This document shows positions 22,050 to 30,323 of a DNA stretch of 55,948 nucleotides, piece after piece. Origin of the DNA: a bacterium (lineage in GTDB: Archaea > Thermoproteota > Nitrososphaeria > Nitrososphaerales > Gagatemarchaeaceae); contig DAIDAO010000004.1 of NCBI GenBank assembly GCA_027310575.1, positions 1-55,948 on the forward strand, given 5' to 3'. Every line of letters starts with the position of its first letter. Position 1 is the first letter of the stretch. The position numbers were made by a program, and so were the translations under genes. The notes under the pieces are model-generated. The model worked only from the letters and a program-made list of their open reading frames with translations. It did no database searches and was not told the origin of the DNA.

Positions 22050-22994
22050 ATGGAAGGGAAGACGGAGAAGCTGGTGATAATCGGGTCGGGCCCCGCAGGG
22101 CTGACCGCGGCCATCTACGGGTGCAGGGCCGACCTGGAGCCGCTGGTCTACATGGGGACCAAGTACGGGGGCCAGCTCATGCTCACGAGCGAGGTGGAGA
22201 ACTTCCCAGGCTTCCCAGACCCGGTCCTCGGGCCTGACCTGATCAACAAGATGAAGTCCCAGGCAGAGAGGCTGGGGGCGAGGCTGGTCCAGGACGACGT
22301 GGTGAGGGTGGACTTCAAGAAGTACCCGTTCGAGGTCTACACCCCCTCCGGGGTCACGAAGGCGCTGTCGGTGATCATAGCTACCGGGGCGAACCCCAGG
22401 CGCCTGAACCTCCCCTCCGAGATGAGGCTGATGGGGAAGGGGGTCTCGAACTGCGCCGTCTGCGACGGCTTCTTCTTCAGGGGGAAGAAGGTCGCGGTGG
22501 TCGGAGGAGGGGACACCGCCATGGAGGAGGCGACGTTCCTGACCAAGTTCGCCTCGTCCGTGCAGGTCATCCACAGGAGGGACGAGCTCAGGGCGAGCGC
22601 TGCGCTGAAGAAGGAGGCGACCGAGAACCCGAAGATCAGCTTCGTCTGGGACTCGGCTGTCACGGACGTCCTCGGCGAGGGGAAGGTCCAGGGGGTGAAG
22701 GTGAGGAACCTGAAGACCGGAGCGGAAAGCACGCTCCAGGTGGACGGGCTCTTCGTCGCGATCGGGTACGACCCTGCCACGGAGGTATTCAGGGGGCAGG
22801 TGGAGCTCGACCAGAAGGGGTACGTCGCGCTGAAGAACGGGACAGAGAGCAGCGTCCCAGGGGTGTTCGTGGCCGGGGACGTGCACGACTTCCGCTACAG
22901 GCAGGCGATAACTGCAGCCGCAGACGGGTGCAAGGCGCTCCTCGACGCGGAGAAGTTCGTGAAGCAGAAACTGGAAGTAACGGTCCCTAGCTGA
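22050..22994 (+). CDS. trxB: Thioredoxin reductase
   Basis: A 314-residue flavoprotein. FAD motif IGSGPAGLTAAIYG, redox pair CAVC in SNCAVCDGFFF, NADPH motif VGGGDTAMEEA, and C-terminal FVAGDVHDFRYRQAITAAADGCKAL. It reduces thioredoxin using NADPH (or possibly another donor). A TATA-like CATTTATGA lies about 35 bp before the ATG. Its 3' end overlaps the convergent amrS gene by 8 bases. Confidence 0.95.
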   Translation: MEGKTEKLVIIGSGPAGLTAAIYGCRADLEPLVYMGTKYGGQLMLTSEVENFPGFPDPVLGPDLINKMKSQAERLGARLVQDDVVRVDFKKYPFEVYTPSGVTKALSVIIATGANPRRLNLPSEMRLMGKGVSNCAVCDGFFFRGKKVAVVGGGDTAMEEATFLTKFASSVQVIHRRDELRASAALKKEATENPKISFVWDSAVTDVLGEGKVQGVKVRNLKTGAESTLQVDGLFVAIGYDPATEVFRGQVELDQKGYVALKNGTESSVPGVFVAGDVHDFRYRQAITAAADGCKALLDAEKFVKQKLEVTVPS

Positions 22995-25281
22995 TCACGG
23001 AGGCGAACCTGTCCTCGGCGAAGGACTTGCTGAGCGGGCCCACTATGGGGGTCTTGTGGCCGCAAGCCCTGCACCTGTTCCCCCCGTCCAGGTTGTATTC
23101 CAGGATCTCGTAGCCGTATCTCTTGATCAGCACCTTCTTGCATCCAGGGCAGTAGGTGCTCTCGTCGGGGTGGCCTGGGACGTTCCCGATGTAGACGTAG
23201 TCGAGCCCGACCTTCCGGCCGACGGCCACGTGCTTCTCGAGGGTCTCGACCGGGGTCCAGGGGAAGTCCATCATCTTGTAGTCGGGGTGGAAGCGGAGGA
23301 AGTGGACCGGGGTCTCGGGGCCGAGGTTGTCGTATACGAACCTGCAGAGCTTCTCCGCAGCCTCGAGGGACTCGCCCACTCTGGGGACGATGAGGTCGGT
23401 GATTTCGATGTGGACCTTCGCCCTGCGCTTGATCTCGAGGAGGCTCTGGAATATCGGGTCTGCGTTCGGGATCGATATGTACTTCCTTACGAAGCCTGTC
23501 TCCCCGCTCCCCTTGAAGTCCACGGTCACGCAGTCGAGAAAGTCGTCCATCATCGCGACGGTCTCTGGGGTATCGTAGCCGTTGGAGACGAAGATGTTGA
23601 AGAGCCCCTTCGACCTGGCGATCCTCCCCACGTCCCTGGCGTACTCCATGAAGATGGTCGGCTGGTTATAGGTGTAGGCCATCCCCTCGCAGCCATAGGA
23701 GAGGGCGCTGTCGACGAGCTCGTCCGGGGTGGCTTCGACCCCCTCGATCTTCCTGAGCTGACTGATGTCAGAATTCTGGCAGTTGCTTACCGCCACGAAG
23801 GAGGAAGTGTAGGAGTGGTCCTCTTCGACCTCCATGTTGTAGACGTAGCCATCGTAATCCTTCTCTCTGACTGATCGGACAGGGACGAGCCAGAGATCAT
23901 CCCTTTCGACAATCTTGGTAGCATGACCAAAGTCAGAGCCCGCTGAACTGCTCACCATCATGCGGGTCATGTAGTCGTTGTGCCGATTGACCGTCCTGCC
24001 CTGGATCTCGTAGTACGGTTCGTTGTTCGAGACATAGAACCTAGGAGACAGCCCGAGCCTGAACATGAGGTACCAAGCGCCAAGCGTGAGGGCCTGCGAA
24101 ACCGACGTCGTCCCCATCCATCTCTTTCCGCGGCTCCCTGTCGAGAAACCGTCGCCCCGCATGTACCCTCTGAGGAACCCGCGGCGCACCTCGTCCGAAC
24201 CGTTGAGGAGGACGAAGTCGGGAACCTTCTTCGTATAACAGTCCGCCCCCATCACGTGATTGAAGAAACTCCCGAGTTCGCTGCTCCCCACCGTGACCCG
24301 AGTGACCGGGCCCTGCGTGATGCGGTAGGGGTTGACCCCGAAGATCCTCCTCAGAAGGTCTTCTGTCCGGGTGATGAGTTCGGCTTCGTGGGCACCGAAC
24401 GAGAAGCAGACTGACCAGCTGTTAGGTCTCGCCGAAAAACGGATGCTTGATCCTTCCGCGGCATAAAGCCCCAGGAGCTCTCCGAACTCCCCGTTGAGGA
24501 CGACCAGACGTAATATCCCCCCTCTTTTCGAACGTTTGAACCTGACATGCCTCTCGTCGAAGACCAAGTCGTCCTGGATCTTTCCAAGCGGACGGGGCCC
24601 CGTCGCTTCCAGCAGAACCATCGCGATGTCTATTTCGGAAGTGACCATGCTTGATTTCGGCTTGGGCACGGCCAGGAAGTCCCCAGTGGCCACCTGGTCC
24701 GCCCTCCGCTTGACCAGTTCCCCTGACTCCCTGTCAGCGACCAAGATATTGTGGTCGGGCGTGCATTCGAGCTCCGGTAGGTAGAATGGCCTGATTCTGA
24801 GCATCTTCCCGGCGTACTTGTGCCGGAACACCTTGTCCACAAATCTCCAGTGGCCGGAGTGCGAAAGCACTCGCGTCGAGTCAGGAAAGGCAACTTCGTC
24901 CGACGAACCGGACGAGTTGTAGATCTGCTCGATTGGGATGATGCCTCTGTCTGTCAGAATCGGAGTCGCCGGGGTGAAGCAGTACGCGCATGCCCAACTG
25001 CAGCCGCTCGTCGCTATAGAGAAGATCTTCGAGCCTGGACGGTAGTGGACCACGGGCTTCTTCTCGATCGGGTCTATGTGCCCGGCCATCACCCTGCCAT
25101 AGACCAGGAGGTAGAGCTTCCCCCCGACCACTCCGCGGACGCCGCAGAAGCCTATCTGCCCTTCCCCGATCTGACAGTTGCGCGCGCAGGCTGTGCACTG
25201 CACCCGGCCGTTGGGGAGCTCCCTGTACAGCTCCGCCTGCCTGCCTGAGGGCTCGGTCAGCCTGGCCCTGATGGACATCAT
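22987..25281 (-). CDS. amrS: AmrS-type radical SAM enzyme (AmmeMemoRadiSam family) interrupted by an intein
   Basis: The 764-residue precursor consists of a 364-residue enzyme plus a 400-residue intein. The enzyme has the N-terminal CTACARNCQIGEGQIGFCGVR block of the AmmeMemoRadiSam family, a radical SAM motif that becomes CSWACAYC after splicing, then YTYNQPTIFMEYA and a C-terminal zinc-ribbon-like CPGCKK...CRACGHKTP. Its partners in other genomes are AMMECR1 and Memo proteins, not seen here; the biochemical role of archaeal members is unsettled. The gene faces the transposon; its likely promoter (CCTTAATGG, about 25302-25310 on minus) is intact. Confidence 0.88.
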   Translation of the reverse strand: MMSIRARLTEPSGRQAELYRELPNGRVQCTACARNCQIGEGQIGFCGVRGVVGGKLYLLVYGRVMAGHIDPIEKKPVVHYRPGSKIFSIATSGCSWACAYCFTPATPILTDRGIIPIEQIYNSSGSSDEVAFPDSTRVLSHSGHWRFVDKVFRHKYAGKMLRIRPFYLPELECTPDHNILVADRESGELVKRRADQVATGDFLAVPKPKSSMVTSEIDIAMVLLEATGPRPLGKIQDDLVFDERHVRFKRSKRGGILRLVVLNGEFGELLGLYAAEGSSIRFSARPNSWSVCFSFGAHEAELITRTEDLLRRIFGVNPYRITQGPVTRVTVGSSELGSFFNHVMGADCYTKKVPDFVLLNGSDEVRRGFLRGYMRGDGFSTGSRGKRWMGTTSVSQALTLGAWYLMFRLGLSPRFYVSNNEPYYEIQGRTVNRHNDYMTRMMVSSSAGSDFGHATKIVERDDLWLVPVRSVREKDYDGYVYNMEVEEDHSYTSSFVAVSNCQNSDISQLRKIEGVEATPDELVDSALSYGCEGMAYTYNQPTIFMEYARDVGRIARSKGLFNIFVSNGYDTPETVAMMDDFLDCVTVDFKGSGETGFVRKYISIPNADPIFQSLLEIKRRAKVHIEITDLIVPRVGESLEAAEKLCRFVYDNLGPETPVHFLRFHPDYKMMDFPWTPVETLEKHVAVGRKVGLDYVYIGNVPGHPDESTYCPGCKKVLIKRYGYEILEYNLDGGNRCRACGHKTPIVGPLSKSFAEDRFASVIS
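23782..24981 (-). other. LAGLIDADG intein in amrS (in frame, 400 residues)
   Basis: Codons 101-500 of amrS. Block A is CFTPATPILTDRGIIPIEQI with Cys1; block B is LECTPDHNILV with the conserved Thr/His; LAGLIDADG motifs are LLGLYAAEGSS and FLRGYMRGDGF; block F/G is DGYVYNMEVEEDHSY...FVAVSN, followed by the extein +1 Cys. The last intein residue is Asn, but the penultimate one is Ser instead of the usual His. The insertion lies between CSWACAY and CQN, i.e. in the cluster motif. Confidence 0.92.
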
Positions 25282-25323: not shown

Positions 25324-25331
25324 CTCATGTC
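25324..25331. repeat. Left target-site duplication
   Basis: CTCATGTC, repeated exactly at 30316-30323 immediately outside the other terminal inverted repeat. Eight bases is the duplication length typical of IS6-like and some other DDE elements. Confidence 0.9.
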
Positions 25332-25381
25332 GGTTCTGGTAAGTTGACGGTGGATTCAGGGCGGTGTTAAGGGGCGGTTGA
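25332..25381 (+). repeat. Left terminal inverted repeat
   Basis: The outer 25 bases (25332-25356, beginning GGTTCTGGTAAGTTGACG) match the right end exactly in inverted orientation. After a 7-bp non-matching spacer, TGTTAAG and GCGGTTGA also recur on both sides, giving 41 of 50 matching positions. The two-block structure suggests a cleavage end plus an inner transposase-binding site. Confidence 0.92.
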
Positions 25382-25409
25382 AGGCCTTTCCTTTGAGGTC
25401 ATTAACAAA

Positions 25410-25421
25410 TTCGTCAACGAA
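25410..25421. promoter_or_regulatory. Small palindrome upstream of the methyltransferase gene
   Basis: TTCGTCAACGAA has 5-bp inverted arms and lies about 25 bp before the ATG, just after ATTAACAAAT, the best TATA candidate. It could be an operator for this gene, but is short. Confidence 0.3.
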
Positions 25422-25446
25422 ATCTGTCTTTCCTTCGAATTAGGAG

Positions 25447-27204
25447 ATGGGTCGAGTTTCGTCCCAATCGACCGAATTGCCTCCGCTCGCCCTGCAAGAC
25501 AACGTCCTGTTCTATGGCGACAACCTCGACATACTCAGGCGGTTCATCCCCGACGAATCAATCGACCTAGTCTACCTTGACCCGCCCTTCAACAGCAAGG
25601 CGGACTACAACATACTATTCAAGGAAGTGAGCGGAGAAGAATCGAACGCGCAGATACGCGCCTTCTCTGACTTCTGGCATTGGGACTCGGCGGCCAGAAA
25701 GACCTACGAGTATCTTGTGAGCAATGAGGTAGACAATAGGGTTGCGACAGTCGCAGACTCACTCTATCGGTTACTAGGCAAGAACGACATGACTGCATAT
25801 CTCTTCATGATGGCAATCAGGCTGACGGAGTTACGTCGCGTCTTGAAACCAACAGGGTCGTTGTTCTTGCACTGTGACCCAACCGCAGACAGTTACCTCC
25901 GGATGGTCCTAGATGCGATTTTCAGTCCCAAGGGTTTCATGGGTGAAGTCATTTGGAGAAGAACAACGAGCCATGTCACAAGTCGAAGGTGGGCCCGACT
26001 CCATGATGTCGTCCTAAGCTACGCGAAGGACGAAAGCGCGGTCAAGTTCCACCCACCGAAGTTGCCACCTGACGAAGGTTGGGTTGAACGCGAATACCAC
26101 CATCAGGATTCACGCGGTAGCTACATGGTTGACAACCTCACGGGGGCCGGAACCACTAACGGCCCGAGCGGCATGCCTTGGCGTGGGGTTGACCCTGCGA
26201 AAATAGGAGCAGGGCGTCATTGGCGTTATACTCCGGACAAACTCGACAAACTCGACGCTGATGGAATGATATACTGGCCTGAGCGAGGCCAGTATCCAAA
26301 ACTCAAGGTCTACATGACGGAAGACATGGGCTCGACGGTCGGCGACCTCTGGATAGACAAAGACGTAAAGGGCCTTGGAAGAACTTCTGATGAACGGTTA
26401 GGCTATCCGACTCAGAAGCCGACCGCGTTGCTGGAAAGAATCATTGATTCCTGCTCAGACAAGGGAGACTGGGTCCTCGACCCATTCTGTGGGTGTGGAA
26501 CGGCCATCGACGCGGCCGAAAAGATGCACAGACATTGGGTCGGAATCGACATCACCTATCTTGCAATCAATGTAATCAAACGCCGCATGCGCGACGCGTA
26601 TCCCCGCGCCAAATTCAGGATAGAAGGAGAACCACAAGAACTCGCGGCCGCCCAAGAACTCGCCAAGGACCGTTACCAGTTTCAGTGGTGGGCTTTGTCG
26701 CTGATAGGGGCGAGGCCAGTGGGTTCATCTGTCGGTAGCAGAGAAGGAATGAAGGGAGCCGACGAAGGCATAGATGGGTGGCTCAGATTCGGTGACGGCA
26801 ACGGCCACGTTGAACGTATAGTTGTCCAAGTCAAGAGCGGGCACGTCGGCGTCAAAGACATCAGGGAGCTGCGAGATGTCGTCCAAAGACAGAGAGCGGC
26901 CATAGGCATCTTCATCACGCTCGAAGAGCCCACAAGTGAGATGGTCAAAGAGGAGAGAGCGACGGAACCGTTCAAGCATCCGACGTGGCAACACGAATAC
27001 CCTGCAATTCAGATTCTGACAATCAAGGACATGCTCAGGGGGAAGATGCCGGACATTCCTCCCACAATCAACCCATATCAAGAAGCTCAGGTTTCTAAGA
27101 GAACACCAGAAGGGAAGAACGAAACACTGACCTCTGGCTCGCTACACTCTTTCGAGGTCAAAAGAGACAGAAGAGGAACCGCCGTCCAAGACAGGCTCAG
27201 CTAG
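25447..27204 (+). CDS. DNA methyltransferase fused to a PD-(D/E)XK (Mrr-like) nuclease domain
   Basis: A 585-residue fusion. The methyltransferase part has catalytic motif IV first (LVYLDPPFN, about 42-49) and the SAM motif later (LDPFCGCGTAIDAAEK, about 344-359), with YPTQKP at 320-325; this order marks the beta class, and DPPF suggests N6-adenine (or N4-cytosine) methylation. Residues about 430-530 resemble an Mrr-like nuclease: GIDGWLRF supplies D443 and VVQVKSG the Q-x-K (461-463). One chain could thus modify and cut DNA. Alternatively the nuclease part could be inactive. Its stop shares a CTAG with the convergent AbrB-like gene. AGGAG sits only one base before the ATG. Confidence 0.85.
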   Translation: MGRVSSQSTELPPLALQDNVLFYGDNLDILRRFIPDESIDLVYLDPPFNSKADYNILFKEVSGEESNAQIRAFSDFWHWDSAARKTYEYLVSNEVDNRVATVADSLYRLLGKNDMTAYLFMMAIRLTELRRVLKPTGSLFLHCDPTADSYLRMVLDAIFSPKGFMGEVIWRRTTSHVTSRRWARLHDVVLSYAKDESAVKFHPPKLPPDEGWVEREYHHQDSRGSYMVDNLTGAGTTNGPSGMPWRGVDPAKIGAGRHWRYTPDKLDKLDADGMIYWPERGQYPKLKVYMTEDMGSTVGDLWIDKDVKGLGRTSDERLGYPTQKPTALLERIIDSCSDKGDWVLDPFCGCGTAIDAAEKMHRHWVGIDITYLAINVIKRRMRDAYPRAKFRIEGEPQELAAAQELAKDRYQFQWWALSLIGARPVGSSVGSREGMKGADEGIDGWLRFGDGNGHVERIVVQVKSGHVGVKDIRELRDVVQRQRAAIGIFITLEEPTSEMVKEERATEPFKHPTWQHEYPAIQILTIKDMLRGKMPDIPPTINPYQEAQVSKRTPEGKNETLTSGSLHSFEVKRDRRGTAVQDRLS

Positions 27205-27389
27205 CCATCGGACGCTAGCGATATCTCGGTTCTCGTTCCCTTGATTTTGTAAGTAATCGCGTCGACACCTTCCCCCTTGCCGAGGTGGTCAATCACGGGC
27301 TTGGGAATCGAGGTTGTGTAGTATCCGCTCGTCTCGTTGTGGTGGACGGCGACCGTGAACTCCTTGGCGTCCTTCTTCCACTTGGGCAT
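27201..27389 (-). CDS. AbrB/SpoVT-like small protein
   Basis: A 62-residue protein (start MPKWKKDAKEFTVAVHHN). The segment YYTTSIPKPVIDHLGKGEGVDAITYKIKGTRTEIS resembles the swapped-hairpin AbrB DNA-binding fold (S-I-P-K-x-V-I-x-x-L-G). Such proteins serve as transition-state regulators or antitoxins. Its ATG overlaps the stop of the coiled-coil gene as TGATG, and it is last in the minus-strand transposon operon. A longer frame to 27476 exists, but would overlap its neighbour extensively. Confidence 0.65.
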   Translation of the reverse strand: MPKWKKDAKEFTVAVHHNETSGYYTTSIPKPVIDHLGKGEGVDAITYKIKGTRTEISLASDG

Positions 27390-27748
27390 CAGGGAATCAC
27401 CTTCGCGAGCAGGGCAGTCAGTATTACGAGTATCGAAGTCAGAGCGATGAGTCCGACTGTCAGCCATTGAAGCCACTTCGAGGACTGCTCTAGCCGCTTC
27501 GTGGTCTGGTTAAGGATGCCAAGTTCCAACGAAAGAATCTCCTGTCTCTCTGCCTCAATTCTTAGTGTGATATCATCCAATTCAAGGAACGTTGGGGCGA
27601 GGTCAGGTCTGTTGTCATTCCGAAGGTCGTATAGCGACCTGTTCGGGTGCTTGCTCGCGTTGAGTTCGTTTGTCAGAACTGCTCTCCTCTCTAGCAACCT
27701 CTTGATTTCTGACCTCGACGCTTCTATCCGTGGGTTTGGCTCAATCAT
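27389..27748 (-). CDS. Coiled-coil protein with C-terminal membrane anchor, unknown
   Basis: A 119-residue protein: charged, heptad-rich segment (about residues 8-88) followed by one hydrophobic helix at the C-terminus (WLTVGLIALTSILVILTALLAKVIP). No family recognised. The ATG at 27748 overlaps the transposase stop as ATGA and its own stop overlaps the AbrB-like start. A tail-anchored coiled coil next to an AbrB-like gene is compatible with a toxin-antitoxin or anchoring role, but nothing proves this. Confidence 0.65.
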   Translation of the reverse strand: MIEPNPRIEASRSEIKRLLERRAVLTNELNASKHPNRSLYDLRNDNRPDLAPTFLELDDITLRIEAERQEILSLELGILNQTTKRLEQSSKWLQWLTVGLIALTSILVILTALLAKVIP

Positions 27749-28878
27749 TGGTGCTTCGCCGCGTTCTGTATAATAGTCATCCACTTGTCTTTTCCCTCGA
27801 CCTTGATGCCCGCCCGCTCCGCAGGCGTCTCCCCTTTCAGCCCTTCATGCGGCCTGAGATAGTTGTGGTAAATCTGATACCCCTTCAGGATGGGCGAGTC
27901 CTCCTTCTTGAGTCCTCGAAAGACCTTTTCCCTGTCTCGGACTTCGCCGTTCATCCGTTCCATCTTGTTGTTGTGAACCGTCCCGTCAATCCGGATGTCT
28001 CTGATGTGGTCAGGACTCCGGACTTCTCCGAACTGGCTCCACATCTCCTTCCTCCAAGCCTCGTGGAAGTTGTTCGCTCCGTCGCTGATGAGTGCCTTGG
28101 GCTTCTTCCCCGCTCTCTCGATGGCCTCCCTGAACATGGGCCGCACGTCAGAGGTTCCCTTGTTGTCTGCCACCTGTTGCGATATCCAGAAGCGCGTCTC
28201 GTCGTCCATCATGGCGAAGAGATACTTCATGTTGCCCTTCACCTTCAGGTATAGCTCGTCTGTCCTCCAAGCGTCTCCGAGTTGCGGGGTCAGCTTGTCG
28301 AGGTATCCCTGCATCAGCCCGACATACTTGCGTATCCAGTTCATCACCGAGACGTGCGAGACGTTCACCCCTTGGAGCCTTAGGAACTTCTGGACGTTCC
28401 TGAACGATTCGCCCGTGAAATACAACTGCATGGCCGAGGTTATCGCCTGAGGGCTTGCCCGCATCCTTTCGAAGCCGATGTTCACGCTGAACGTCCTCCG
28501 ACAATCAGCGCACTGGAACCTCTGGATTCCTCCGGCTTTGGTCTTTCTGACCCCGAACTTCCTCAGGTTCTCCGAGCGACAGAATATGCACCCTTGGACG
28601 TTGACAGGGAGAATCCGAATCGGCTCCCTCGCCACGACCTCCCTCAGAGTAAGACTAAGCTCAACGGCGTAGACGTGCTTGCATTTCATCCTTCGATAGA
28701 CGGAATCCGGACACGAACAATACCAACCCAGCTCAGTAGAAACAACCTCATACTCCTTGTCAAGCGTCTGAGAGTGAACCGCATATTGGGTGTCGCTCAC
28801 CCGCCTGACCCAACCCAGCCTGTTGGCGATTTCTCCGCCCTTCAGTTCCCTGAAGTCGTGGAGGGATGGCTCCCTCAT
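27745..28878 (-). CDS. IS6-like DDE transposase with SWIM and zinc-ribbon domains
   Basis: A 377-residue transposase from the ATG at 28878. N-terminal SWIM zinc finger: C54-x-C56...C66-x-H68 (WYCSCPD...MKCKHVY). A zinc ribbon follows (C97-x2-C100...C123-x2-C126), then a helix-turn-helix region (SFRNVQKFLRLQGVNVSHVSVMNWI). The DDE triad is likely D207 (WRTDELYLKVKG), D266 (LISDGANN) and E307 (NNKMERMNGEV). The WRTDELY...KYLFAMMD pattern is IS6-like and fits the 8-bp duplication. A long upstream frame to 29280 crosses the promoter and is not real. It is coupled to ORFs on both sides. Confidence 0.85.
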   Translation of the reverse strand: MREPSLHDFRELKGGEIANRLGWVRRVSDTQYAVHSQTLDKEYEVVSTELGWYCSCPDSVYRRMKCKHVYAVELSLTLREVVAREPIRILPVNVQGCIFCRSENLRKFGVRKTKAGGIQRFQCADCRRTFSVNIGFERMRASPQAITSAMQLYFTGESFRNVQKFLRLQGVNVSHVSVMNWIRKYVGLMQGYLDKLTPQLGDAWRTDELYLKVKGNMKYLFAMMDDETRFWISQQVADNKGTSDVRPMFREAIERAGKKPKALISDGANNFHEAWRKEMWSQFGEVRSPDHIRDIRIDGTVHNNKMERMNGEVRDREKVFRGLKKEDSPILKGYQIYHNYLRPHEGLKGETPAERAGIKVEGKDKWMTIIQNAAKHQ

Positions 28879-28985
28879 CAGTCCCACGACCCGCTCAGGT
28901 CTCGGCGGGCTTCGAGGCTCGAAAGATAGTCCTCGAATCTGTCCGCATCCATCTCCATCCGGAGTTGTTCTCGGCTCATGGTCAT
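28878..28985 (-). CDS. 35-residue ORF coupled upstream of the transposase
   Basis: The ORF begins MTMSREQLRMEMDADRFE and is acidic and helix-prone. It starts about 23 bp after the centre of the TATA box, as expected for a leaderless mRNA, and its TGA overlaps the transposase ATG as TGATG. It may be a leader controlling transposase translation by reinitiation, or a small partner protein. It is short enough to be missed by length-filtered gene finders. Confidence 0.6.
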   Translation of the reverse strand: MTMSREQLRMEMDADRFEDYLSSLEARRDLSGSWD

Positions 28986-28988
28986 CCG

Positions 28989-29002
28989 TATCCACATGGA
29001 TA
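28989..29002. promoter_or_regulatory. Operator-like palindrome, proximal copy
   Basis: TATCCACATGGATA, itself a near palindrome (TATCCA...TGGATA). It lies between the TATA box and the start codon of the 35-codon ORF, where a bound protein would block polymerase. The exact reverse complement is at 29020-29033. Confidence 0.75.
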
Positions 29003-29012
29003 TTATTTATAG
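29003..29012 (-). promoter_or_regulatory. TATA box of the transposase operon
   Basis: On the minus strand CTATAAATAA, a strong archaeal TATA sequence. It is flanked on both sides by the 14-bp palindromes and lies about 23 bp before the first ATG. Confidence 0.75.
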
Positions 29013-29019
29013 GTTGTGG

Positions 29020-29033
29020 TATCCATGTGGATA
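29020..29033. promoter_or_regulatory. Operator-like palindrome, distal copy
   Basis: TATCCATGTGGATA, exact inverted copy of 28989-29002, 17 bases away, on the upstream (BRE) side of the TATA box. A dimer bound at each, or a tetramer at both, would occlude TBP/TFB. Confidence 0.75.
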
Positions 29034-29344
29034 GAGTGAGTTGAACGTCTGAAGGGATGGCGGAAGCGTTATCTCCCCTCGCTCGCACCTCACCGGGGTC
29101 GGACTGTCGCGCCAGCCCAACGCCTCCCACCCGCCACCCTTTCTCCACCTGCGAATGCGGGTCATGGGTCTCTAATAATCCGGTCAACAGAAGAGGCGAC
29201 ATTGTCGGACTCCGTTGGTTTACGCCGATACTGTCTGGCCAATGCGTGAGTTCTCGGCATTGTCGGAAAATCACGTGCAATTCCGACAGTATCGATTCCT
29301 CACTTCCAACGCTTAAATCAACCGAGGGCGCTTTTCACGAGCGC
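29034..29344. other. 311-bp non-coding stretch with nested inverted repeats
   Basis: No convincing gene. Two inverted repeats overlap: CGATACTGTC (29226-29235) with GACAGTATCG (29285-29294), and TGTCGGAA with TTCCGACA (about 29261-29288). ATTGTCGGA also recurs near 29200. CGCTTAAAT at about 29310-29318 is a TATA candidate about 27 bp before the TTG of the regulator gene. The repeats may be operators or an RNA hairpin. Confidence 0.5.
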
Positions 29345-30253
29345 TTGAATGACGAGGAAAGAAGAATCACGTTCTTCGTGAAGGCCTATCGGAGTGGCAG
29401 CTACCGTCCTAGTGATAGGTCGAGACGCGCAGTTCTCCTTGCCCTCCTTACCGAAGGTGAGCAGATGACCTCAAGAAAGTTAGCCGCGAAGTCCGGCGTC
29501 TCCTATTCTGTCGTGTATGACATGATTCCTGACCTTGTCAAGTATGGGTCGCTTAGGCAACTCTCTGTCGCGAAGCGCAAGCACCGTCAGGACTTCGCAT
29601 ACTCTCTCACCGATGATGGCCTTAGCCTTGCCCTCTCTATCGCATACGAAGACAGGGTTCTCGGCATCTCTTACCCCACGCTTCTCCAACGGGTGTTCCA
29701 GACTAGTCCGAAAGATGACCCGCTGGCAATCTTGGTCAACGACGTGATGCTCAATGCAGTCGATAGGGGGATGACCGAGTATGTCCTGCGGTTCCTGCTG
29801 GCCGCAATGAAAGAGGCGGAGGGTTCGGGCGGGGCCGAATGGAAGAAAGCGGGCTTGGGCGCGGTTGAAGTCCTGTTTGAGGAAGAAAAAGCCGTCAAGC
29901 AATGCTACCTTTCAGCCCTTGCCAGCTTGACGACAGAAGACAGGCGGGTCGTGTATCAGTATTACAAGGGCGAAATGGAGCGGCTGATGTTCAGGCTCGC
30001 CAGCAGACTGAAGAGCAGAGAACTGATGCTAGTTGCGGCAGAATCACAGAGAGACCCTGACAACCTGATAGCTCCTTTCGCCTGTAAGAAGTGCGGGTTC
30101 AAGGATTGGAGGAATACGACTTCGATGGAGAGGGTGATGCAAGATGCCTTCACGAAGTCCTATCCTGAATGCCCAAGATGCGGGAGGCCTGTCAAGTCCA
30201 ACAAGTTCAGTCGTGAGGCCAATCTTGGGTTGGTCGCCAGCCTCCTGAGGTGA
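29345..30253 (+). CDS. Winged-helix regulator with C-terminal zinc ribbon
   Basis: A 302-residue protein from a TTG at 29345; the longer open frame upstream (to 29057) is low-complexity and crosses the repeats. A winged helix lies at about residues 23-85 (RAVLLALLTEGEQMTSRKLAAKSGVSYSVVYDMI...YSLTDDGLSLAL). A helical middle follows, then a zinc ribbon, FACKKCGFKD...ECPRCGRP (C-x2-C, C-x2-C). It is the best candidate to bind the palindromes in the transposase promoter. Its stop is 12 bp before the right inner repeat. Confidence 0.75.
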   Translation: MNDEERRITFFVKAYRSGSYRPSDRSRRAVLLALLTEGEQMTSRKLAAKSGVSYSVVYDMIPDLVKYGSLRQLSVAKRKHRQDFAYSLTDDGLSLALSIAYEDRVLGISYPTLLQRVFQTSPKDDPLAILVNDVMLNAVDRGMTEYVLRFLLAAMKEAEGSGGAEWKKAGLGAVEVLFEEEKAVKQCYLSALASLTTEDRRVVYQYYKGEMERLMFRLASRLKSRELMLVAAESQRDPDNLIAPFACKKCGFKDWRNTTSMERVMQDAFTKSYPECPRCGRPVKSNKFSREANLGLVASLLR

Positions 30254-30265
30254 AGCCCGCTCCTG

Positions 30266-30315
30266 TCAACCGCTTCTTAACAGGGAGAACAATCCACCGT
30301 CAACTTACCAGAACC
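30266..30315 (-). repeat. Right terminal inverted repeat
   Basis: Inverted counterpart of 25332-25381; the outer 25 bases (30291-30315) are identical to the left end and the inner GCGGTTGA/TGTTAAG blocks are conserved. Confidence 0.92.
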
Positions 30316-30323
30316 CTCATGTC
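30316..30323. repeat. Right target-site duplication
   Basis: CTCATGTC, identical to 25324-25331. Confidence 0.9.

Follow-up and report, generated by a model that had tools for sequence, protein, structure and literature searches.

The window, a 55,948-nucleotide stretch of an archaeal contig (DAIDAO010000004.1, assembly GCA_027310575.1) assigned to the Gagatemarchaeaceae, contains an element of 4,984 bp (25332-30315) that very probably belongs to a family of unit transposons in which the cargo has been swapped from copy to copy and control is encoded by the element itself. The termini of the element are terminal inverted repeats (TIRs) of sequence GGTTCTGGTAAGTTGACGGTGGATT, with 0 mismatches between the two copies, bordered by an exact target-site duplication (TSD). 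The original prediction, made by reading the DNA alone, had proposed perfect inverted repeats of 25 bp with an exact duplication of 8 bp, both of which were found at the ends where it placed them. The second conserved block that it reported inside the repeats is the continuation of the TIR arms, which run on over 63 nt with 78% complementarity. The content of six genes was also as predicted, based on domain scans, motifs and a conserved micro open reading frame (micro-ORF). The G+C content is 54% within the element compared to 62% across the remaining window.

Insertion site

In a survey of empty sites the ZIP gene adjacent to the element was looked for in 60 relatives. In 12 of the relatives that have ZIP, the start of amrS adjoins it with no element between them, as would be expected from the proposal that empty sites joining these genes occur in related genomes. 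L191 has 138 bp between the two genes and L196 has 119 bp; the majority of the remaining relatives have ∼100-220 bp, and L197 has ∼1 kb. The ATAACATATGTTAT-like motif and the GCCATTAAG-like motif that flank the insertion in the window are retained at the empty sites for which the sequence was displayed. Since the gap is short and lacks an element in these relatives, the results indicate insertion into a short divergent promoter region. TIRs, TSD and empty site are therefore all present, in agreement with the complete single-transposase unit transposon that was predicted. Within the host genome, the TIR sequence is confined to the pair belonging to the window element; this genome also contains at least two further complete family members, L056 and L058, whose cargo is different.

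A family of elements with defined ends

Relatives of the transposase were found in 34 of 61 near genomes, in 109 of 400 genomes from the class Nitrososphaeria, and in a few records from Bathyarchaeota and other archaea. None was found in viral contigs, a result that provides no evidence for viral carriage of the elements. Approximately 120 loci with 130 transposase genes were retrieved and scored (S) for paired ends and exact target duplication; the loci were taken from the best transposase matches, and the counts that follow hold for this sample rather than the class. The control was comprised of 386 swapped-flank cases, in which left and right flanks were taken from different loci. Matching ends with an exact TSD were obtained for 82 of the 130 transposase genes at S≥18, compared to 1 of 386 controls. 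At S≥30, the stringency corresponding to the window element, the values were 40 of 130 and 0 of 386. End calls in L158, L076 and L081 were left out of the accepted elements. The 81 accepted elements are 1,855-6,928 bp in length with a median of 3,067 bp, and 77 of them encode a passenger open reading frame (ORF) of at least 100 aa. No bare element shorter than 1.8 kb was seen in the examined set. The 8-bp duplications have no strong consensus apart from recurring TGTTTTAG/CTAAAACA-like sites; a TSD of this sequence or near it recurs among different genomes (L136, L144, L145 and L133), possibly a hot spot.

The transposase is comprised of SWIM, zinc-ribbon and IS240/IS6-type DDE domains recognized by Pfam and NCBIfam. 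The SWIM residues (C54, C56, C66, H68), the four cysteines of the zinc ribbon (C97, C100, C123, C126), the catalytic D207, D266 and E307, and R314 are each 97-100% conserved among 116 sequences. A lysine or arginine seven residues past the DDE glutamate is a trait of the IS6 family of insertion sequences (ISs), and is present as R314. An 8-bp TSD of the IS6 type and ends starting with GG and having G at the seventh position are also present (CTCATGTC, GGTTCTG), both in the window element and across the family. No Cas1-family integrase, the mark of casposons, was found among the element proteins in the Pfam and NCBIfam scans.

Replacement of cargo

The association between transposase and cargo was evaluated on a tree of the 116 transposase sequences, constructed with a quick method and containing some long branches. 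The label for restriction-modification (R-M) genes changed 12 times for 12 R-M elements, which is the maximum. Where the transposase DNA of two elements is 75-85% identical, the shared part does not go beyond the transposase, sequence next to it or the final 70-80 bp; elsewhere no DNA similarity was detectable and the cargo differs.

Tandem arrays of elements were found at two loci. L128:7643-16949 contains three elements plus the beginning of a fourth, spaced by identical TGTTTCGA, and L144:3344-11218 contains two spaced by TGTTTTAG. In both arrays the insertion is exactly at the boundary of an existing element, and the elements differ. Cargo might be exchanged by such insertion beside an earlier element and subsequent use of the outer ends.

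Cargo of the window element and of the family

The cargo protein of the window element matches N6_N4_Mtase (PF01555, 6e-37) and Mrr_cat (2.1e-9). The deduced sequence contains catalytic and S-adenosylmethionine-binding motifs of a DNA methyltransferase (MTase), DPPF at residue 45 and DPFCGCGT at 345, and within the Mrr_cat match the nuclease active-site residues GxDxGID at 437 and VVQVK (QxK) at 459. With both active-site signatures in one sequence, and with R-M cargo recurring in separate branches of the family, the earlier description of the cargo as a methyltransferase-nuclease fusion is upheld. The motifs suggest that the protein methylates and apparently also cuts DNA, and a function in R-M is somewhat favored. 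At E≤1e-15 the host genome has no other PF01555 match. Homologues on rhizobial plasmids, with ∼89% coverage and ∼44% identity, indicate a known type of protein that was probably acquired by horizontal transfer.

DNA methyltransferase or R-M genes were identified in 11 of the 81 accepted elements. The MTase-Mrr fusion of the window element recurs in L069. Other combinations are MTase with Tsp45I (L052), MTase with ThaI (L066), HSDR_N-MTase-TaqI_C (L046), D12 with HNH (L126), N6_Mtase with HsdS (L144) and MTase-HNH with DUF5131 (L156); L159, L166 and L171 also contain R-M or methyltransferase cargo. Further type I/IIG-like genes are found in L076, L078 and L081, outside the counted set. In 273 kb of element DNA there are 6-7 PF01555 genes, or ∼22-26 per Mb, compared to ∼0.8 per Mb for 41 related genomes (∼62 Mb, 52 rows); the excess of ∼25-30-fold is crude because thresholds and genome sets differ.

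Additional cargo includes AbiV-type HEPN, Fic, AAA ATPase and proteasome-like Ntn proteins, and HicA/HicB-like pairs identified by reading of the sequences. Related passengers resembling Ntn-hydrolases, with PF00227 matches among the cargo, are encoded at L105:10450-11259, L108:7321-8247 and L144:7975-8787, each in an element with a regulator of class B (see below). In 44 of the 81 elements, a simple hydropathy count made without a background predicted a membrane segment in a passenger ORF of ≥100 aa.

Predicted regulators and operators

A small protein of DNA-binding type is encoded divergently from the transposase in ∼73 of the 81 elements, the winged-helix proteins of the window element and L136 included. 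The types are AbrB-like, ribbon-helix-helix, zinc-ribbon, winged-helix and a family of 70-75 aa. Pfam recognized approximately one third of 73 regulators submitted (MazE 12, RHH_1 9 and several zinc ribbons), a set that includes two AbrB genes, of the window element and L045, located downstream rather than divergently. The assignment of the remaining classes is consequently based on sequence pattern and position. The 70-75 aa family (KGKxYLYY..., with a coiled C-terminal end) occupies the position of the divergent regulator mostly in R-M-carrying elements, as in L144:4609-4821, L156:8192-8419, L159:4993-5214 and L160:7978-8202.

Of the 81 elements, 31 have inverted repeats of at least 10 bp upstream of the transposase, compared to 2 of 81 shuffled sequences. 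In the window element, TATCCACATGGATA and its inverted copy surround the TATA-like box in the promoter of the micro-ORF and transposase; the box lies ∼25-30 bp ahead of the micro-ORF ATG. The two nearest relatives, L045 and L046, contain the same pair of half-sites with compensating changes. The sequence TATCYACGTRGATA, at a match of at least 12 of 14 positions, accompanies class-A AbrB-like proteins in 16 of 22 elements and was found in 0 of 94 elements without class A. In tree-independent pairs the association was ∼9 to 0, with a median p of 0.004. Class-B proteins (KLQK...) are accompanied by TTAGGYACCTAA in 5 of 5 cases compared to 1 of 111 others. The first test of the class-B operator showed no association, the pattern having missed members, and the value of 5 of 5 was obtained after the pattern was redefined upon inspection of the data; the class-B result is for this reason weaker than that for class A. 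Between the two operator tests the pattern for class A was broadened as well, to include TRWKK members.

The AbrB-like family was aligned with 16 members, and the class-A model has a beta-beta-alpha-beta-beta fold (pLDDT 82.6) from which the 62-aa protein of the window element is predicted to be an AbrB-like regulator. The AbrB profile gave no match to PDB sequences. The control circuit that had been proposed for the element was supported insofar as the class of regulator predicts the operator at the transposase promoter, and revised insofar as the leading candidate would be the AbrB-like protein and not mainly the winged-helix protein. The latter was considered as a conserved core regulator and rejected, with a homologue in L136 only.

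Proposed mechanism and alternative explanations

In the proposed mechanism, the transposase would bind the GGTTCTG-type ends, presumably via its SWIM, zinc-ribbon and helix-turn-helix (HTH) parts, and insert the entire element with creation of the 8-bp target duplication. The transposase module, comprised of transposase, often the micro-ORF, and ends, would be the stable part around which regulator and passenger genes are exchanged over evolution. Transposition would be held low by a small DNA-binding repressor encoded in the element. In the window element the AbrB-like protein may act on the paired palindromes around the TATA box of the micro-ORF and transposase, with the divergent winged-helix protein as a possible second regulator. 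The passenger, as an R-M-like enzyme in one polypeptide, could methylate resident DNA and restrict unmodified incoming DNA, thereby protecting the carrier and penalizing loss of the element; the identity of the cargo suggests a benefit to the host as well.

Several observations weigh against the interpretation as a unit-transposon family with exchanged cargo and its own control. The transposase scored 101.1 bits with the IS6 model NF033587, under the cut-off of 125, and as judged from its sequence is therefore a relative of IS6 and not a canonical member. Ends with scores of 18-21, including those of the R-M element L052, have less certain bounds and may be mis-set singly. No movement was observed, the genomes being assemblies and many of them metagenome-assembled; some elements sit in one-contig genomes (e.g. 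G005, G175 and G184), indicating that they are not only an effect of assembly. The window element is present in a single copy with no second exact copy in the host genome, and the further copies that the original prediction proposed to look for were found as relatives with TIRs, TSDs and other cargo, not as the same element. The fusion in L069, the second MTase-Mrr element, is broken into two frames. Most passengers have no recognized function, and defence is accordingly one class of cargo among many. In the window element and in L045 the AbrB gene is not divergent but follows the transposase gene, on the same strand, an arrangement in which it would act as negative feedback. The nearest PDB folds to the AbrB-like model were MazE, then VapB and AbrB, all non-significant in Foldseek (E>1).

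It is highly improbable that the element is a simple IS6-like IS beside or joined to host genes, the cargo being host DNA and the far repeat a partial IS or chance. Canonical IS6 elements contain one gene in ∼0.8 kb, and IS6 elements often build pseudo-compound structures (PMC7986276), properties that speak for such an explanation. Zinc-finger extensions are described in clostridial clades of IS6, and passenger-bearing members on record are limited to one, ISDsp3 (PMC7986276). Harmer and Hall argue that even simple archaeal ISs are not part of IS6 (PMC6807381). The window element has one transposase and single inverted ends, not two IS copies around cargo as in a compound or pseudo-compound structure, and the exact TSD is at the outermost ends. 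A size set by one ORF filling ∼0.7-1.8 kb is exceeded by the window element and by the family median. The empty site contradicts the explanation, amrS and ZIP being adjacent without any cargo in the 12 relatives, as do the similar ends of 82 of 130 loci and the lack of a bare version below 1.8 kb in the set.

Two further explanations accept a unit transposon and differ in the role of the cargo. Type II R-M systems are able to work as addiction modules, and the MTase-nuclease could be a selfish addiction module, with the HicA/HicB-like pairs, Fic protein and AbiV-type HEPN protein among the cargo as toxin-antitoxin (TA) systems of the same role. This role is unlikely, since much of the cargo is neither R-M nor TA; moreover, a fused MTase-nuclease would dilute both activities jointly, presumably a weaker design than separate genes. 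Alternatively, the MTase could serve the transposon by methylation of ends or promoter that tunes transposition, the nuclease domain being inactive or minor. Dam methylation regulates some bacterial transposons, and part of the nuclease domain also matches NA-iREase1, a Pfam family of inactive nucleases. The D and QxK residues of the nuclease are nonetheless present, and most members lack the MTase and contain unrelated types of R-M instead, several with restriction enzymes of the ThaI and Tsp45I type, which places the MTase outside the transposition core and renders this explanation quite improbable. The preferred interpretation is a unit transposon with an exchangeable, R-M-like passenger.

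Relation to known systems and significance

The family resembles IS6/IS26, including the archaeal and long clostridial members, in the IS240/IS6-type DDE domain with R seven residues past E, the GG/G7 ends and the 8-bp TSD (PMC7986276, PMC6807381), and differs in the archaeal SWIM and zinc-ribbon N-terminal part and in the size of 1.9-6.9 kb with passengers versus ∼0.8 kb. In common with transporter ISs (tIS) and unit transposons (Tn3, Tn7-like) it has one set of ends, internal passengers and defence genes in the cargo, as reported for Tn7-like elements (PMC8649781). Compared to Tn3 and Tn7-like elements, the family is archaeal and much smaller, with a single transposase, nearly always a different cargo in each copy, and its own swappable regulator-operator pair. 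It shares the host group with the thaumarchaeal integrated elements (proviruses, casposons, integrative conjugative elements, cryptic and IS-like elements) surveyed in 2019 (PMC6563490). That survey showed R-M genes in cryptic integrated elements, found IS-like transposons to have typically 1-2 genes, and reported passenger-carrying composite DNA transposons as undetected in archaea (PMC6563490). The cargo protein of the window element is similar to single-chain R-M enzymes with N6_N4_Mtase and an Mrr-type nuclease in one chain, and differs in being a passenger of a 5-kb archaeal transposon known here from sequence. The passenger-carrying DNA transposon is a known kind, found here where the survey reported none. 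A later description of the family was not found in the open literature, IS databases and subscription papers being beyond the search.

The many elements with defined ends stand against the statement in the survey, the most thorough thaumarchaeal one found (PMC6563490). In a broader proposal, which we consider evenly balanced between right and wrong, the elements would be an unrecognized class of archaeal passenger transposons, abundant in Nitrososphaeria including complete genomes, that functions as a fast exchange system in which a constant transposase core is combined with exchangeable regulator-operator pairs and exchangeable small defence systems, some in tandem at one 8-bp site. They would then be a main carrier of small R-M and anti-virus genes, with their unknown passengers enriched for undiscovered defence genes. 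The elements offer a short, clearly bounded search space for new archaeal defence genes, a natural collection of predicted small repressor-operator pairs usable in archaeal genetics, and a handle on how closely related transposons swap cargo.

Gene map and additional features

Features of the window element and the basis of each assignment.
Feature	Coordinates	Strand	Basis
Left TSD copy CTCATGTC	25324..25331	.	Exact 8-bp repeat
Left TIR, 25 bp perfect, arm reaching ∼25381	25332..25356	+	Inverted-repeat comparison
Cargo MTase fused to Mrr-type nuclease domain, 585 aa	25447..27204	+	Pfam and motifs
Predicted AbrB-like regulator, 62 aa (MPKWKKDAKEFTV...)	27201..27389	-	16-member alignment, predicted fold, operator co-occurrence
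131-aa protein, charged/coiled N-terminal part, one C-terminal hydrophobic segment	27389..27784	-	Sequence
Transposase, 377 aa	27745..28878	-	Pfam/NCBIfam, conservation in 116 relatives
Micro-ORF MSREQLRMEMDADRFEDYLSSLEARRDLSGSWD, stop overlapping transposase ATG	28878..28979	-	Conserved in relatives
Putative operator half-site TATCCACATGGATA	28989..29002	.	Inverted-repeat comparison
TATA-box-like CTATAAATA, micro-ORF/transposase promoter, between operator half-sites	29004..29012	-	Sequence, position
Putative operator half-site TATCCATGTGGATA, inverted copy	29020..29033	.	Compensating changes in L045, L046
Repeats CATTGTCGGA	29200-29209, 29258-29267	.	Ahead of winged-helix gene
Repeats CGATACTGTC/GACAGTATCG	29226-29235, 29285-29294	.	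Ahead of winged-helix gene
Putative divergent winged-helix regulator, ∼302 aa counted from TTG, with CxxC pairs at the C-terminal end	29345..30253	+	Weak TrmB/IclR/MarR-type HTH matches
Right TIR, 25 bp perfect	30291..30315	-	Inverted-repeat comparison
Right TSD copy CTCATGTC	30316..30323	.	Exact 8-bp repeat

The 131-aa protein had no match in Pfam. The micro-ORF is conserved in at least six relatives (L045, L050, L053, L054, L058 and L062); in the clade of the window element it encodes 28-33 aa (M[ST]xEQxRxEM...) and immediately precedes the transposase gene. The start of the winged-helix gene was read from the sequence, the open frame stretching up to 29057, and the repeats at 29200..29294 are a possible second operator.

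An intein containing a LAGLIDADG domain splits the amrS-like radical SAM gene beside the element (22987-25281). Related transposases with differing, TGTACACTG-like ends were found at L070:3559-6384 and L081:1695-14227, the latter a 12.5-kb span with a CAAAAATG duplication, and are a possible sister group of larger elements.

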